From IMG/VR virus record IMGVR_UViG_3300030450_000576, positions 1 to 28,449 of that record: DNA of 28,449 bases. The stretch is one strand, 5' to 3'. Shown here piece after piece: positions 15,081-26,095 of this stretch. A program made the position numbers and the translations under genes. Source of the DNA: a virus. The notes beneath the pieces were generated by a model that worked only from the letters and a program-made list of their open reading frames with translations, was not told the origin of the DNA and made no database searches. Within the stretch, counting starts at the first letter, position 1, and each line of letters starts with the position of its first letter.

Positions 15081-15272
15081 ATGAGACAGTTTTTAATTTC
15101 ACAGATGCTTAAATCAAAAAAGTTTTGGTATGCAATATCATCAGTATGCGTACCTGCTATTGTAACTTATTTAGGCGTTGACGAAACAACAGCAACTAAT
15201 CTTTATTACGCACTACTTACCCTAGTATTAGGGCAGGGAATTGCGGACATGGGCAAGAATGCCACAAAGTAA
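15081..15272 (+). CDS. Putative holin, two membrane segments (63 aa)
   Basis: Short protein with two predicted membrane segments, at about 15-33 (FWYAISSVCVPAIVTYLGV) and 40-57 (NLYYALLTLVLGQGIADM), joined by an acidic turn (DETT). The N-terminus is basic (LKSKKF). The pattern is typical of small membrane proteins next to endolysins in Bacteroidetes phages and fits a class II holin. It follows the M15 gene by 16 bases and its 3' end overlaps the next gene by 14 bases. The function is inferred from topology and position. Confidence 0.65.
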   Translation: MRQFLISQMLKSKKFWYAISSVCVPAIVTYLGVDETTATNLYYALLTLVLGQGIADMGKNATK

Positions 15273-15978
15273 TCGTTATAGGTTAAAACCTAACGAAATA
15301 GAAACGATCCAACGTATGCGACAGGGCTTGAGGAATGTGTTAGTTGTAGGTGACTTGCATGAACCTTTTTGCCTTGACGCCTATTTGGATTTTGTTTTAG
15401 AACAACAAAGCATACATAACTGTTCAGAAATTGTCTTTATAGGTGACATTATTGACAACCATTATTCAAGCTATCATGAAACATCAGCAGACGGCATGGG
15501 TGGTTTAGATGAATTAGAGTTAGCAATAAAAAGAATAGCTAGGTGGTACAATGCATTCCCTTTTGCTACTGTAATAATTGGCAACCATGACAGAATGATT
15601 ATGCGTAAAGCACAAACAAGTGCTATACCTTCTAAATGGATAAGATCTTACAAAGAAGTTTTAAATGTACCTAATTGGAACTTTGTAGAACGTTACGAGT
15701 TAGACGGTGTACAATATATTCATGGTGAAGGCGGTACAGCTAGGGCTAAATGTCGTGCAGATATGATGAACACAGTACAAGGGCATTTACATACACAATC
15801 TTATTGCGAACATTACGTAGGCAAGAACTTTAGAGTGTTTGGCATGCAGGTGGGTTGCGGTATAGATCACGAATCCTATGCTATGGCCTATGCAAAGTAT
15901 GGAAAAAAACCAGCTATTGGAGTTGGAATAGTTAAAAACTATGGTACATTACCCTTAAATGTACTTATGCCTTTATAA
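15259..15978 (+). CDS. Calcineurin-like metallophosphoesterase (239 aa)
   Basis: All core motifs of the family are present: GDLH at 31-34, GDIID at 62-66, GNHD at 108-111, HGE at 155-157 and GHLH at 175-178, which together bind two metal ions. It should hydrolyse phosphodiesters or phosphomonoesters; the substrate cannot be read from sequence. I choose the ATG at 15259; a TTG at 15241 would add six residues. It overlaps the holin gene by 14 bases and is the last gene before the non-coding region, an unusual place for a phosphoesterase. It could act on nucleic acid ends or on small nucleotides such as signalling molecules; this is open. Confidence 0.85.
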   Translation: MPQSNRYRLKPNEIETIQRMRQGLRNVLVVGDLHEPFCLDAYLDFVLEQQSIHNCSEIVFIGDIIDNHYSSYHETSADGMGGLDELELAIKRIARWYNAFPFATVIIGNHDRMIMRKAQTSAIPSKWIRSYKEVLNVPNWNFVERYELDGVQYIHGEGGTARAKCRADMMNTVQGHLHTQSYCEHYVGKNFRVFGMQVGCGIDHESYAMAYAKYGKKPAIGVGIVKNYGTLPLNVLMPL

Positions 15979-21852: not shown

Positions 21853-22078
21853 ATGCAAATGTAAAGACATAATAAAAGAAATTAAAAAAGCAACAATAAA
21901 AGTTATAGACGGAAAAATACGAACAGCAGAAGCATTATGCGATTGCGGTGAGTATATGGAAGAAGTAGAAGAAAAATTTACAGGTTTCCCAACGATACAC
22001 AGAAAAGAGCCAACGCACAGTATGAGTGGATTAGTAGCAAAGGCAAACGAATCAATAAAGAGAAATGAAAAGAAGTAA
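21842..22078 (+). CDS. Small zinc-ribbon-like protein (78 aa)
   Basis: A CKC pair at residues 5-7 and CDC at about 33-35 make a likely four-cysteine zinc site with an insert of strands (KKATIKVIDGKIRTAEALCD). The C-terminal half is basic and disordered (SGLVAKANESIKRNEKK). The role is unknown; proteins of this size often bind RNA or DNA. Overlaps the next gene by 14 bases. Confidence 0.5.
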   Translation: MRFKCKCKDIIKEIKKATIKVIDGKIRTAEALCDCGEYMEEVEEKFTGFPTIHRKEPTHSMSGLVAKANESIKRNEKK

Positions 22079-22295
22079 CAAACAAAACAACTATTATTGG
22101 AAATGTATAGTTATGCCATTATGCCAACATACAGGTTACCATAAATTTGAAATGCACGAAATACTAAGTCATAGATTTATAGCAGATCGTAGCAAAGCGT
22201 TAGACACAAAAGAGTTTACTAATTATTGTGAAGAAGTACGTATATGGGCAATGACTGAACTTGACGTATTTTTACCACTACCAAATGAATGTTAA
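22065..22295 (+). CDS. Conserved phage protein of the recombination-region type (76 aa)
   Basis: RSNKQNNYYWKCIVMPLCQH, then FEMHEILSHRFI, LDTKEFTNYCEEVRIWAM and a LPLPNE end form a pattern I know from small phage proteins near NinB or NinG type genes. The proposed link to recombination is through neighbourhood only. It is the last gene of the packed early array; an 18-base AT repeat region separates it from the modification genes. Confidence 0.6.
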   Translation: MKRSNKQNNYYWKCIVMPLCQHTGYHKFEMHEILSHRFIADRSKALDTKEFTNYCEEVRIWAMTELDVFLPLPNEC

Positions 22296-22313: not shown

Positions 22314-22886
22314 ATGAAAGTACCTATTAATCAATTACATACAAACGTTAATAATCCAAGAGTGATTAAAAACGATAAATTTAAAAAACTTGTTGAATCA
22401 ATAAAAGAGTTTCCAGAAATGTTAAACCTACGCCCCATAGTTGTAGACGAAGACATGACTATATTAGGTGGAAATATGCGACACAAAGCGTGTATAGAAG
22501 CAGGATTAAAAGAAGTGCCTATTAAAATAGCAAAAGGATTAACTGAAGATCAAAAACTAGAGTTTATTATAAAAGACAACGCAAGTTTTGGCGAGTGGGA
22601 TTGGAGTATGTTAGGAAACGAGTGGGATAATATAAAACTTGGTGAATGGGGGTTAGATGTTTGGCAACCTGAACAAGAAGTTGACTACGGAGTTTTAAAC
22701 GATCTTGATTTAGACGATGAACTTGAAGATATGGAAGACAATGTTAAAAAAGGCATACTAATAGATTTTACTTCAGAAGATATAGAAGAAGCAAGAGAAC
22801 TATTAGCAAAATTTAGAAAAGCTAACGCATATATAGGTGGACTATTAATAGAAAAGCTAAAAGAAACTAAAATATGTACAAAATAA
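22314..22886 (+). CDS. ParB-like protein of the modification cassette (190 aa)
   Basis: Residues 1-75 are a ParB N-terminal-like domain: VPINQLHTNVNNPRVI, KLVESIKEFP, NLRPIVVDEDMTILGGNMRH, then EAGLKEVPI. The GGNMRHKA segment (52-59) replaces the GERR motif of chromosomal ParB. This phage type is often fused to DNA methylases; here the methylase is absent, and an acidic part (about 118-145) and a small helical end follow. It could bind nucleotide or guide the two enzymes downstream to DNA. There is no ParA and no parS-like array, so partition is unlikely. An AT-repeat (TATATATATTATTATG) precedes the ATG; the end overlaps the next gene by 13 bases. Confidence 0.72.
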   Translation: MKVPINQLHTNVNNPRVIKNDKFKKLVESIKEFPEMLNLRPIVVDEDMTILGGNMRHKACIEAGLKEVPIKIAKGLTEDQKLEFIIKDNASFGEWDWSMLGNEWDNIKLGEWGLDVWQPEQEVDYGVLNDLDLDDELEDMEDNVKKGILIDFTSEDIEEARELLAKFRKANAYIGGLLIEKLKETKICTK

Positions 22887-23677
22887 TCATACCGTCATAT
22901 AAAAGGGTAGACACATTAATTAAAAAAACATTAAAATCATTATATAAAACAGATATTATAAAAGACATATATGTGTTTGTAGCTGATAAAGAAGAATATG
23001 AAATTTATAAAACAAAATTAAAAGATTTTTCTGATATAAAGGTAATTATTGGTGTACGAGGCATACCAAACCAAAGAAATTATATACAGAAATTTTTTAA
23101 AATAGATGATTTTTTAGTTTTTATAGATGATGACATTGCTCATATTAGAGGTTTAGACGCTAACAACAAAATTGTAAAAGCAAATAAATTACACGAATTT
23201 ATTTTAAAAGCATTTGAACAAACAAAAAAAATAGGTTTTAAAATGTGGGGTGTAAATTCTAACACTAGTATTTTTGAAATGAAACAAAAGCTATCTGCTG
23301 GACTTATATATATTGTTGGAAATTTTTATGGGTTAATAAACAATGTTGATATATTAGTAGATGAAGGTAAAGAAATAAAAGCTAGACAAAATTACGAAGC
23401 AGGAAAAGAAAGTCATGAAAGAGCATTAAAAATGTATAAAAAATATGGCGGTGTTTTAAAATATAGATGTATTGGAGTGGATAGCAATTATTGGGGTGAA
23501 AAAGGTGGACATCAAATTAGTAGAAATAATAAAGGTGAAAAAGAAGCAACATTATATTTACATGATAAATATAAACAAATTACCAAAATAAGAAAAGTTA
23601 AAGGTATATATGATTTACAAATTAAACCTAACACAAAAGTATTTAACACAAATATAATTCAAAATGAAAACAATTAA
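22874..23677 (+). CDS. GT-A glycosyltransferase, TET/JBP-associated type (267 aa)
   Basis: A GT-A fold: IIIPSYKRVDTLIKKTLKSL (4-23), GIPNQRNY (63-70) and the metal/nucleotide-sugar motif FIDDD (83-87), then an acidic candidate base in KESHERALKMYKKYG (178-192). There is no membrane anchor, so it would act in the cytoplasm. Beside a TET/JBP-type dioxygenase, the likely job is to put a sugar on hydroxymethylated bases in phage DNA. The gene is visibly more AT-rich than its neighbours and prefers GAT and AAT over GAC and AAC, which suggests recent transfer. It overlaps both neighbours (13 and 14 bases). The sugar and the target base are unknown. Confidence 0.78.
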   Translation: MYKIIIPSYKRVDTLIKKTLKSLYKTDIIKDIYVFVADKEEYEIYKTKLKDFSDIKVIIGVRGIPNQRNYIQKFFKIDDFLVFIDDDIAHIRGLDANNKIVKANKLHEFILKAFEQTKKIGFKMWGVNSNTSIFEMKQKLSAGLIYIVGNFYGLINNVDILVDEGKEIKARQNYEAGKESHERALKMYKKYGGVLKYRCIGVDSNYWGEKGGHQISRNNKGEKEATLYLHDKYKQITKIRKVKGIYDLQIKPNTKVFNTNIIQNENN

Positions 23678-24440
23678 ACTACAACAAGTAGAGCATAACA
23701 TAAAGATCGGTAAAAAGTGCGAATACATTGAACCTAACGTAAAAGAAGAATGTTTATTAGAAGTAGACGGTGAAATAATTGGTTTCTATATACCTGATTT
23801 AAATAAACACGATAAAAAACTTGTACAGCTTATTTCTATTGCTAATAAAGAGTTTAGAAGTAAAAACGTACCAAAAAGCGCCATGAATAGAACTAGTGGC
23901 GAAAGAGGAAAAACCGAGAAAATTCAGCAATACTCTACAATTTTAGGAAGCGTAGCACCACGCCCACATATGCGTAGAGACTATCCAAGCATTTGCGCAA
24001 CGCATAAAGTAAAATCAGCACAGATCTTTATAAAAGCAATGTTAGGCGCAGCATTACAAAGTGAAAAGATAATTAAAAAGCTTACACCACACATATATAA
24101 TAAACAAGTTGAACTATTTAAAGACGTAAACAAAAAATGGCGTTTTGGAAACTTATTTACAAGTAGCATATCTAATTATAATATATCAGCACCGTTTCAT
24201 AGAGATACAGGCAACATAGAAGGCGCAGTAAACGTAATAATAACAAAAAGACATAATTCAAAAGGTGGTAGTTTAAATGTACCTGATTATAATGCAACAT
24301 TTGAACAAGCAGATAATTCAATGCTAGTTTATCCTGCATGGAAAAACATACATGGAGTTACACCTATTAAACCTATGCAAGAAAATGGATATAGAAACAG
24401 TTTAATCTTTTACCCATTAAAAGCATTTAAAGGAATATAA
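23664..24440 (+). CDS. TET/JBP-like Fe(II)/2-oxoglutarate DNA base dioxygenase (258 aa)
   Basis: The double-stranded beta-helix core is complete: NYNISAPFHRDTGN with His179 and Asp181 as iron ligands, a KGGSLNVPDYNATF strand pair, YPAWKNIHGVTPI with His230 as third ligand, and GYRNSLIFY with Arg244 for 2-oxoglutarate. The D-to-H gap of 49 and H-to-R gap of 14 residues are near those of JBP1 as I remember it. Such enzymes oxidise the 5-methyl group of thymine or 5-methylcytosine in DNA. The N-terminal part (about 1-150) holds RPHMRRDYPSICATHKVKSA, which may contact DNA. It ends 1 base before the terminase small gene. DNA as substrate is inferred from family and the neighbouring glycosyltransferase. 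Confidence 0.8.
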   Translation: MKTIKLQQVEHNIKIGKKCEYIEPNVKEECLLEVDGEIIGFYIPDLNKHDKKLVQLISIANKEFRSKNVPKSAMNRTSGERGKTEKIQQYSTILGSVAPRPHMRRDYPSICATHKVKSAQIFIKAMLGAALQSEKIIKKLTPHIYNKQVELFKDVNKKWRFGNLFTSSISNYNISAPFHRDTGNIEGAVNVIITKRHNSKGGSLNVPDYNATFEQADNSMLVYPAWKNIHGVTPIKPMQENGYRNSLIFYPLKAFKGI

Positions 24441-24441
24441 A

Positions 24442-24795
24442 ATGGACAAAAATAGACACATAAAAAAAGAAGCAGTATTAGAAGCGTTAGAAAAATCTTT
24501 AGGTATAGTAACAACAGCCGTTAAGTCAGTAGGCATAGCAAGATCGACTTTTTACAAATGGATTAATGAAGATGAGGACTTTGCGCAGAAAGTAAAAGAC
24601 ATTGAGAACATTACATTAGATTTTGCTGAAAGCAAGTTACACGAACAAATAAATGATAACAATACGTCAGCAACTATCTTTTATTTAAAAACTAAAGGAA
24701 AGAAGCGTGGATATATTGAGAAGTCAGAACTAGACTTAACATCAGGCGATGAACCTGTAAAGATTAATGTAAACATAAATGGCACAGACTATTGA
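24442..24795 (+). CDS. terS: Terminase small subunit (117 aa)
   Basis: Recognises phage DNA and starts packaging with TerL. The N-terminal half is a helix-turn-helix (AVLEALEKSLGIVTTAVKSV, then GIARSTFYKWINEDEDF), and the middle has ITLDFAESKLHEQI, NNTSATIFYLKTKGKKRGYI, which is typical of phage small terminases. The C-terminus overlaps the TerL gene by 17 bases. It directly follows the modification genes, so packaging and modification genes may be expressed together. Confidence 0.82.
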   Translation: MDKNRHIKKEAVLEALEKSLGIVTTAVKSVGIARSTFYKWINEDEDFAQKVKDIENITLDFAESKLHEQINDNNTSATIFYLKTKGKKRGYIEKSELDLTSGDEPVKINVNINGTDY

Positions 24796-26095
24796 AACAA
24801 GCTTTACAAGAACACAAGGACAAGCAATAGCATACTTATTTGATAAACACACAACAGAAGTTTTGTTTGGTGGCGCAGCAGGTGGTGGAAAGTCTTTTAT
24901 AGGTTGCGCATGGTTAATACTATCTTGCCTTAAATACCCAAAGACACGTTATTTAATGGGTAGAAGTAAGTTAGACAATTTAAAGAAAACTACTTTAAAC
25001 ACTTTCTTTGAGGTATGCGAGTTATGGGGATTAAAAGCAGGTAAACATTACAGCTTTAACGGTGGTTCAAACATAATAACGTTTTATAACAAAAGTGAGA
25101 TATTATTGAAAGACTTGTATCAATACCCAGCAGATCCAAACTTTGACACTTTAGGATCGTTAGAAATTACAGGCTGCTTTGTTGACGAAGCAAACCAAAT
25201 AACAGAAAAGTGTAAAAACATATTAAGTAGTAGAATTAGATTTAAATTAGATAAGTATAAAATTACACCTAAACTACTTTTAACTTGCAACCCTGCAAAG
25301 AATTGGACATATACACAATTCTATCAACCTAATAAAAAAGGTGATATAAAAGAACATAGAAAGTTTATACAATCGCTTGTAGATGATAATGAATATATTG
25401 GTAGGCATTATAAAGAACAATTAGAAAAGCTTGACGAAATAAGTAAACAAAGACTATTATTTGGTAATTGGGAATATGAAGCAACAACAGATAACTTAAT
25501 AGAGTATGACGCTATAATTAATTTATTTAATCAAAAAGGAGTAACAGGTGATAAATATATTAGCGTAGATGTAGCACGATTTGGTACAGATAAAACAGTC
25601 ATAGTATTATGGAACGGATTACAAATTGAAAAGATTATAAGCATAGACAAGTCATCTATAAACGAAGTAGTGGACGAAGTAAGAAAAGTACAAAGAGATT
25701 ATGCTGTAAACCTTAAAAACATTATTGTTGACTCTGACGGAGTAGGGGGTGGCGCACAAGACTATTTACGCTGTACGCCTTTTCAAAATAACGCAAGACC
25801 ACTTAAAAAAGAAAACTATCAAAACTTAAAGACGCAATGCTATTACAAATTAGCTGACTTAATAAACAAAGCGCAAATAGGCATAAGTTGTAACGATATA
25901 CATATTAAAAAGTGTATTATAGAAGAACTAGAGCAAGTAAGATCTAAAAACGCTGATAAAGATAATAAGATACAGATACAAGCAAAAGACACAATTAAAA
26001 CTATATTAGGTAGGTCACCTGACTATTCAGACGCTATAATGATGAGAATGTTTTTTGAAATTGATACAAACTATGGAAAGTATTTTATACAATAA
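24779..26095 (+). CDS. terL: Terminase large subunit (438 aa)
   Basis: DNA packaging motor and nuclease. ATPase: Walker A GGAAGGGKS (31-39), Walker B FVDEA (134-138) and coupling motif LLTCNP (167-172). Nuclease of RNase H type: ISVDVARFGTDKT with Asp264 and Asp271, NIIVDSDGVGGG with Asp318 or Asp320, and RSPDYSDAI with Asp418. The length is usual for the family. It ends the segment that starts with the modification genes; a 109-base gap and a promoter-like motif follow. Circularly permuted ends of the assembly would fit headful packaging. Confidence 0.95.
   Translation: MAQTIETSFTRTQGQAIAYLFDKHTTEVLFGGAAGGGKSFIGCAWLILSCLKYPKTRYLMGRSKLDNLKKTTLNTFFEVCELWGLKAGKHYSFNGGSNIITFYNKSEILLKDLYQYPADPNFDTLGSLEITGCFVDEANQITEKCKNILSSRIRFKLDKYKITPKLLLTCNPAKNWTYTQFYQPNKKGDIKEHRKFIQSLVDDNEYIGRHYKEQLEKLDEISKQRLLFGNWEYEATTDNLIEYDAIINLFNQKGVTGDKYISVDVARFGTDKTVIVLWNGLQIEKIISIDKSSINEVVDEVRKVQRDYAVNLKNIIVDSDGVGGGAQDYLRCTPFQNNARPLKKENYQNLKTQCYYKLADLINKAQIGISCNDIHIKKCIIEELEQVRSKNADKDNKIQIQAKDTIKTILGRSPDYSDAIMMRMFFEIDTNYGKYFIQ

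Follow-up and report, generated by a model that had tools for sequence, protein, structure and literature searches.

The 2021 study of Burke et al. is said to describe phage gene clusters in which a TET enzyme is accompanied by a C5 methyltransferase and a TAGT. For actinophages, operons of the order ParB-TET-(aGPT-PPlase/ADDT)-kinase-terminase are outlined in a passage of the CaiB genome paper, whose authors cite Iyer et al. 2013 (PMC9302106). The DNA of phages ViI and M6 contains a hypermodified thymidine derived from 5-hydroxymethyldeoxyuridine (5hmdU), and glucosylated 5hmdU had not been reported from phages as of 2019 (PMC6449724). Here we analysed a viral sequence of 28,449 bases (IMG/VR record IMGVR_UViG_3300030450_000576, positions 1 to 28,449; hereafter, the window). 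Its three-gene cassette probably belongs to the known TET-based systems by which phages hypermodify their DNA; what is new is that it has no C5 methyltransferase and that its capping gene is exchangeable. We give a probability of roughly 60% to the reading that the cassette performs post-replicative DNA base hypermodification, with a thymine-hydroxylating enzyme and a swappable capping enzyme.

An exact 99-bp direct repeat was found at both termini of the window, and therefore the genome is complete, with a size of about 28.35 kb; its G+C content is 33%. The first-pass annotation, made from the letters alone, had described three overlapping genes with the functions of a ParB-like protein, a GT-A glycosyltransferase and a TET/JBP dioxygenase. 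All three genes were located, and they overlap one another just upstream of the terminase genes (Table 1). The assignments and the hypermodification reading were backed by profiles, structure and synteny, and the Pfam matches of all three genes exceed the curated cut-offs. A ParB profile made from 16 relatives matched ParB/Spo0J/Noc structures (down to 2.6e-9), and the likeness is to their N-terminal domain. No close DNA relative of the window was found in the annotated phage collection. A short NinB/Orf-like ORF (76 aa) lies at window positions 22065-22295; its family match covers the C-terminal part only, and it is kept in the related loci L007 and L058. The metallophosphoesterase gene at 15241-15978 shows 73-80% identity in most relatives having it, which exceeds most other genes compared.

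Table 1. Cassette and adjoining terminase genes of the window
Feature	Position	Strand	Evidence
ParB-like protein, 190 aa, ParB_N domain and GGNMRHKA box, fixed 5' cassette member	22314..22886	+	Pfam ParB_N 1.4e-7
TAGT-family GT-A glycosyltransferase, 267 aa, exchangeable slot gene	22874..23677	+	Pfam TAGT PF20691 1.5e-11; AF2 model
TET/JBP-family Fe(II)/2OG dioxygenase, 258 aa, fixed 3' member	23664..24440	+	Pfam Tet_JBP PF12851 7.3e-11; AF2 model
Small terminase subunit, directly 3' of cassette	24442..24795	+	PHROGs terminase small subunit 3.3e-9
Large terminase subunit	24779..26095	+	PHROGs 7.9e-33; Pfam Terminase_6N

The dioxygenase scored 42.0 bits against PF12851 (Tet_JBP), for which the curated cut-off is 34.9. 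The HxD...H iron triad (H179, D181 and H230) and the 2OG-binding R244, pointed out in the first-pass annotation, were invariant in an alignment of 47 relatives. An AlphaFold2 model calculated with this 47-sequence alignment had a mean pLDDT of 93, and its predicted double-stranded beta-helix fold is closest to the TET enzymes. The best structure matches were TET2 (Z 19.2), NgTet1 (18.2), CcTet (17.1) and CMD1 (16.6), followed at lower scores by FTO (Z 14.8) and AlkB-type enzymes, so that the top match was not a 2OG oxygenase acting outside nucleic acids. The matches of the model included no JBP catalytic structure. When the single protein was searched against PDB sequences, TET2 matched weakly (E 0.15), and the family profile improved this value to 0.0044. 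N184 aligns with the Asn in the HxD loop of TET2. Eight residues past the 2OG arginine, TET2 has His1904, which is a base contact; the window dioxygenase family has Leu at this position (L252 in the window), and the same Leu is present in actinophage TETs adjoining ADDT or aGPT-PPlase genes. The label of phrog_6059, queuine tRNA-ribosyltransferase, is repeated in RefSeq phage records, yet this group matches TET/JBP enzymes.

The slot glycosyltransferase of the window scored 45.1 bits against the TAGT profile PF20691 (cut-off, 27.5). Its AlphaFold2 model (pLDDT 83) has a predicted GT-A fold and matched GalNAc-T with a Z of 15.5. R68, N69 and D86, which belong to the previously noticed PNQRN and FIDDD motifs, were kept in a 27-member alignment. 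A sequence search with the glycosyltransferase profile matched no PDB chain. In S-CBWM1, genes annotated as phosphatase and glucose-1-phosphate thymidylyltransferase adjoin the TET and TAGT genes of that phage.

The complete window genome has no PF00145 (C5 methyltransferase) domain, and PHROGs scans of 40 window ORFs revealed no methyltransferase domain, in agreement with the earlier remark that none was visible. Matches of 'DNA methyltransferase' PHROGs to the window ParB gene and the head-protease gene were rejected, as they fall in non-methyltransferase domains. The same annotation had assumed that most phage TET systems carry a C5 methyltransferase, and this did not hold in the records scanned: PF00145 was detected in 2 of 50 and 6 of 39 cassette records (8 of 89 in total), in each case at a site away from the cassette itself, and none of seven other isolated TET phages had it. 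Six cassette genomes are complete, namely the window, G009, G028, G082 and G025, which have terminal repeats, and the isolate MED4-184; among them only G025 has PF00145. Absence counts for less in the remaining records, many of which are fragmentary. The MED4-184 gene CPAG_00033 (L002:15790-16431) is annotated as a DNA methylase, and only a ParB_N domain, below the cut-off, was detected in it. PF00303, the thymidylate synthase family including the phage dUMP and dCMP hydroxymethylases, was absent from all 46 records scanned (the window and 45 others). Because no hydroxymethylase of the thymidylate synthase type is found in these records, a 5-hydroxymethyl group has no visible origin in them other than the TET enzyme acting on DNA.

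Relatives of the dioxygenase were detected in at least 533 viral contigs of IMG/VR and in only four cases, all on MAG contigs, in a bacterial and archaeal collection of about 85,000 species genomes, and therefore the gene belongs essentially to phages. Bacterial genomes very rarely contain TET genes. Scans with the single TET proteins of S-CBWM1 and Cr30 returned only themselves. In about 125 loci that were read, the usual order is ParB-slot-TET-terminase. A terminase homologue of the window type lies within 1.5 kb downstream of TET in 74 of the 100 loci with enough sequence, and most of the other 26 have a different small gene there, which in some cases looks terminase-like by eye.

The contents of the slot between ParB and TET could be read in 120 loci, near-copies counted. 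A GT-A glycosyltransferase, from one of several subfamilies, occupied the slot in 65 loci, and an FkbM methyltransferase in 22. Sets containing ADDT (amino acid:DNA transferase, family PF18724, of which M6 gp51 is another member) were present in 11 loci, where ADDT was accompanied by a kinase and sometimes also by a PLP enzyme. Seven loci had a P-loop kinase alone, and four had a kinase with an ADDT-like protein (338 aa) of the same PHROG as the ADDT of L053. The slot was empty in seven loci and had other contents in four. The ADDT and PLP proteins of L053 match mainly Ackermannviridae (the ViI group) and similar Vibrio phages, the ADDT also mycobacteriophages. Matches of the slot kinases to phrog_800 are weak (E 2.8e-5 to 3.5e-4), and the M6 member of this group, gp54, is a 5-hmdU DNA kinase by Pfam. 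Since profile comparison of the slot kinases with the M6 enzyme gave an hhalign probability of 10.6%, the link between them depends on these weak PHROGs matches. phrog_800 itself is labelled terminase small subunit although it contains M6 gp54, and this label is repeated in RefSeq phage records. In the window, where the glycosyltransferase holds the slot and the rest was covered by PHROGs scans, no ADDT/aGPT-PPlase or 5-hmdU kinase gene was found; these genes occurred only in slots of relatives.

Several slots hold additional genes. A sulfotransferase (L050:1684-2247; Pfam Sulfotransfer_2, 4.1e-16) lies between the slot glycosyltransferase and TET in one locus, and, to our knowledge, DNA bearing a sulfated sugar would be without precedent. 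Slots of the ADDT type also contain a glutamine amidotransferase, a GNAT acetyltransferase and a Rossmann-type, possibly FAD, protein (L104:5776-6369, L110:5498-5902, L136:6702-7514). The slot at L062:1047-2664 combines a glycosyltransferase with a nucleotidyltransferase-like and a HAD/kinase-like gene, and the gene at L042:8560-9282 encodes a DXD-type sugar-binding glycosyltransferase. Further slot genes are located at L099:2162-3067 and L138:9075-10004.

The exchange of the slot gene is seen most directly by comparing the window with the locus L003. The two DNAs are mostly 95-100% identical across ParB, TET, the small terminase and most of the large terminase gene, with one indel of roughly 10 residues in TET, whereas the identity falls to 40-54% in the slot. 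The alignment breaks off at the slot gene's start codon and recovers at that of TET. The encoded glycosyltransferases, which belong to different subfamilies, have 22% of their residues in common. Similarly, the TETs of L084, with a kinase slot, and L091, with a glycosyltransferase slot, are 98% identical, and the same pattern was found in L039/L094, L008/L009, L032/L088, L021/L024 and L028/L036. The converse case is L018, which has the window glycosyltransferase at 80% identity but matches the window at only 62% in ParB and about 70% in TET. Of the 268 pairs whose TETs are 80-99.9% identical, 197 differ in slot content. A tree of 125 TET rows shows at least 28 changes of slot class, or 59 when finer labels are used; many branches of this tree are weakly supported, and the pairwise comparisons are independent of it. 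Most of the sequences are metagenome contigs, in which assembly chimaeras could imitate gene exchange. We consider such an origin very improbable, as both alleles recur across samples (the window glycosyltransferase in L018, the L003 type in seven loci), the switch points lie at start codons in independent pairs, and the isolate MED4-184 has a third slot gene. The sequence pattern suggests that different capping genes entered precisely and that homologous recombination between the common flanks then shuffles them. This exchange, and not the absence of a methyltransferase, is the surprising part of the system. The first-pass annotation, whose observations were confirmed and whose interpretation was partly supported and mostly right in direction, had a single sequence at hand, and the swapping between near-identical phages, the most unusual feature, was beyond its reach.

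From the genes and their arrangement we infer the thymine substrate, the sugar step, the ParB role and the protective effect. The TET/JBP enzyme would hydroxylate the 5-methyl group of a pyrimidine already present in phage DNA, most likely that of thymine to yield 5-hydroxymethyluracil, and the GT-A enzyme would add a sugar to this hydroxyl, giving a base-J-like glycosylated 5-hydroxymethyluracil. The ParB-like protein may help to guide the enzymes to phage DNA, possibly in connection with packaging, and the modification would shield the DNA from host nucleases. An exchange confined to the slot gene would let the phages alter the chemistry of the modification.

The earlier annotation had offered thymine and host-methylated cytosine as substrates, and the neighbouring genes now tip the balance to thymine, leaving cytosine less favoured. 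TETs with glycosyltransferase slots and with thymidine-type slots are intermixed on the tree, which, together with the near-identity of the L084 and L091 TETs, suggests one TET product common to kinase and glycosyltransferase slots. Thymine is favoured because thymidine-pathway genes, ADDT and PLP, fill the same slot beside closely related TETs, because most records have no enzyme making 5-methylcytosine (5mC), and because Leu replaces the TET2 His1904, as in the actinophage TETs beside ADDT/aGPT-PPlase. If instead the TET enzyme oxidised 5mC laid by a host C5 methyltransferase and the transferase glycosylated the resulting 5-hydroxymethylcytosine, most of these phages would need methylation by the host. 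The 5mC could come from a host methylase, the eight cassette records with a C5 methyltransferase and the N184 alignment are in line with such a substrate, and the weak kinase link lessens the argument for thymine. The structural neighbours of the dioxygenase are enzymes studied mainly with 5mC DNA, and Burke et al. 2021 reportedly found that the phage TETs they assayed act on 5mC. In T-even phages, the TAGT relatives have hydroxymethylcytosine derivatives as their substrates (PMC13390438). Weighing both sides, we regard oxidation of host-laid 5mC as unlikely.

The position of the cassette immediately upstream of the terminase in most loci, and before the terminase in actinophages as well, could also mean that the bulk phage genome is not the target of the enzymes and that they act, for example, on host DNA, RNA or a few packaging sites, with the modification being a regulatory or packaging mark instead of protection. 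A ParB-like partner could provide site-specificity for such a mark. On the other hand, the rapid turnover of slot chemistry looks like escape from recognition, which would be needless for a fixed packaging signal, and we judge these other targets to be less probable still than host-laid 5mC.

Taking the protective thymine modification as the preferred reading, we would offer even odds on a wider picture. Widespread small, largely marine-looking phages would combine a fixed ParB and a thymine-hydroxylating TET with a single capping gene swapped at start-codon precision, including glycosyltransferases of several subfamilies, FkbM, a DNA-base kinase and amino-acid transfer sets. One recombination would change the chemistry of the whole genome, and the window product would be base-J-like glycosylated 5-hydroxymethyluracil, which is not described from phages in the literature consulted. 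If this is true, phages diversify their DNA armour quickly, with a constant enzyme putting the handle on finished DNA and an exchangeable gene setting the cap, and the slots are a source of many candidate DNA-tailoring enzymes. Because near-identical phages differ in one gene, they form a clean natural experiment, and because this layout or a related one is available in isolated phages (MED4-184, Prince, Tonitrus and Prairie), the central claim is testable now.

Among the known systems, kinetoplastid base J, made by JBP1/2 and JGT, has the same predicted chemistry, thymine hydroxylation in DNA followed by sugar transfer, and a phage thymine hydroxylase, if confirmed, would be the bacterial-virus counterpart of the JBP step. 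Unlike JBP, the window enzyme has a single Tet_JBP domain by Pfam, and no J-binding domain was detected in its 258 residues. As in the Burke-type clusters, the TET/JBP dioxygenase of the window adjoins a TAGT-family glycosyltransferase, but the C5 methyltransferase is missing, the slot gene is exchangeable and thymine is the likelier substrate. ViI and M6, whose ADDT and PLP homologues occur in slots of the window-cassette relatives, make 5hmdU before its entry into DNA, whereas the window type has no hydroxymethylase and its TET would make 5hmdU in DNA. The actinophages Prince, Tonitrus and Prairie have the same gene kinds (ParB, TET, glycosyltransferase and deacetylase in Prairie), at the same position before the terminase in Prince and Tonitrus, and Prince gp2 carries the GenBank annotation 'thymidine hydroxylase'. 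The actinophage TETs are only about 25-34% identical to that of the window, and the tailoring genes are mostly behind TET in actinophages but between ParB and TET in the window type. Closer are the Prochlorococcus phages MED4-184, P-HS2 and MED4-117, all three with TETs 50% identical to that of the window, and the cultured MED4-184 has the same ParB-slot-TET-terminase order, with an FkbM methyltransferase instead of a glycosyltransferase in the slot.
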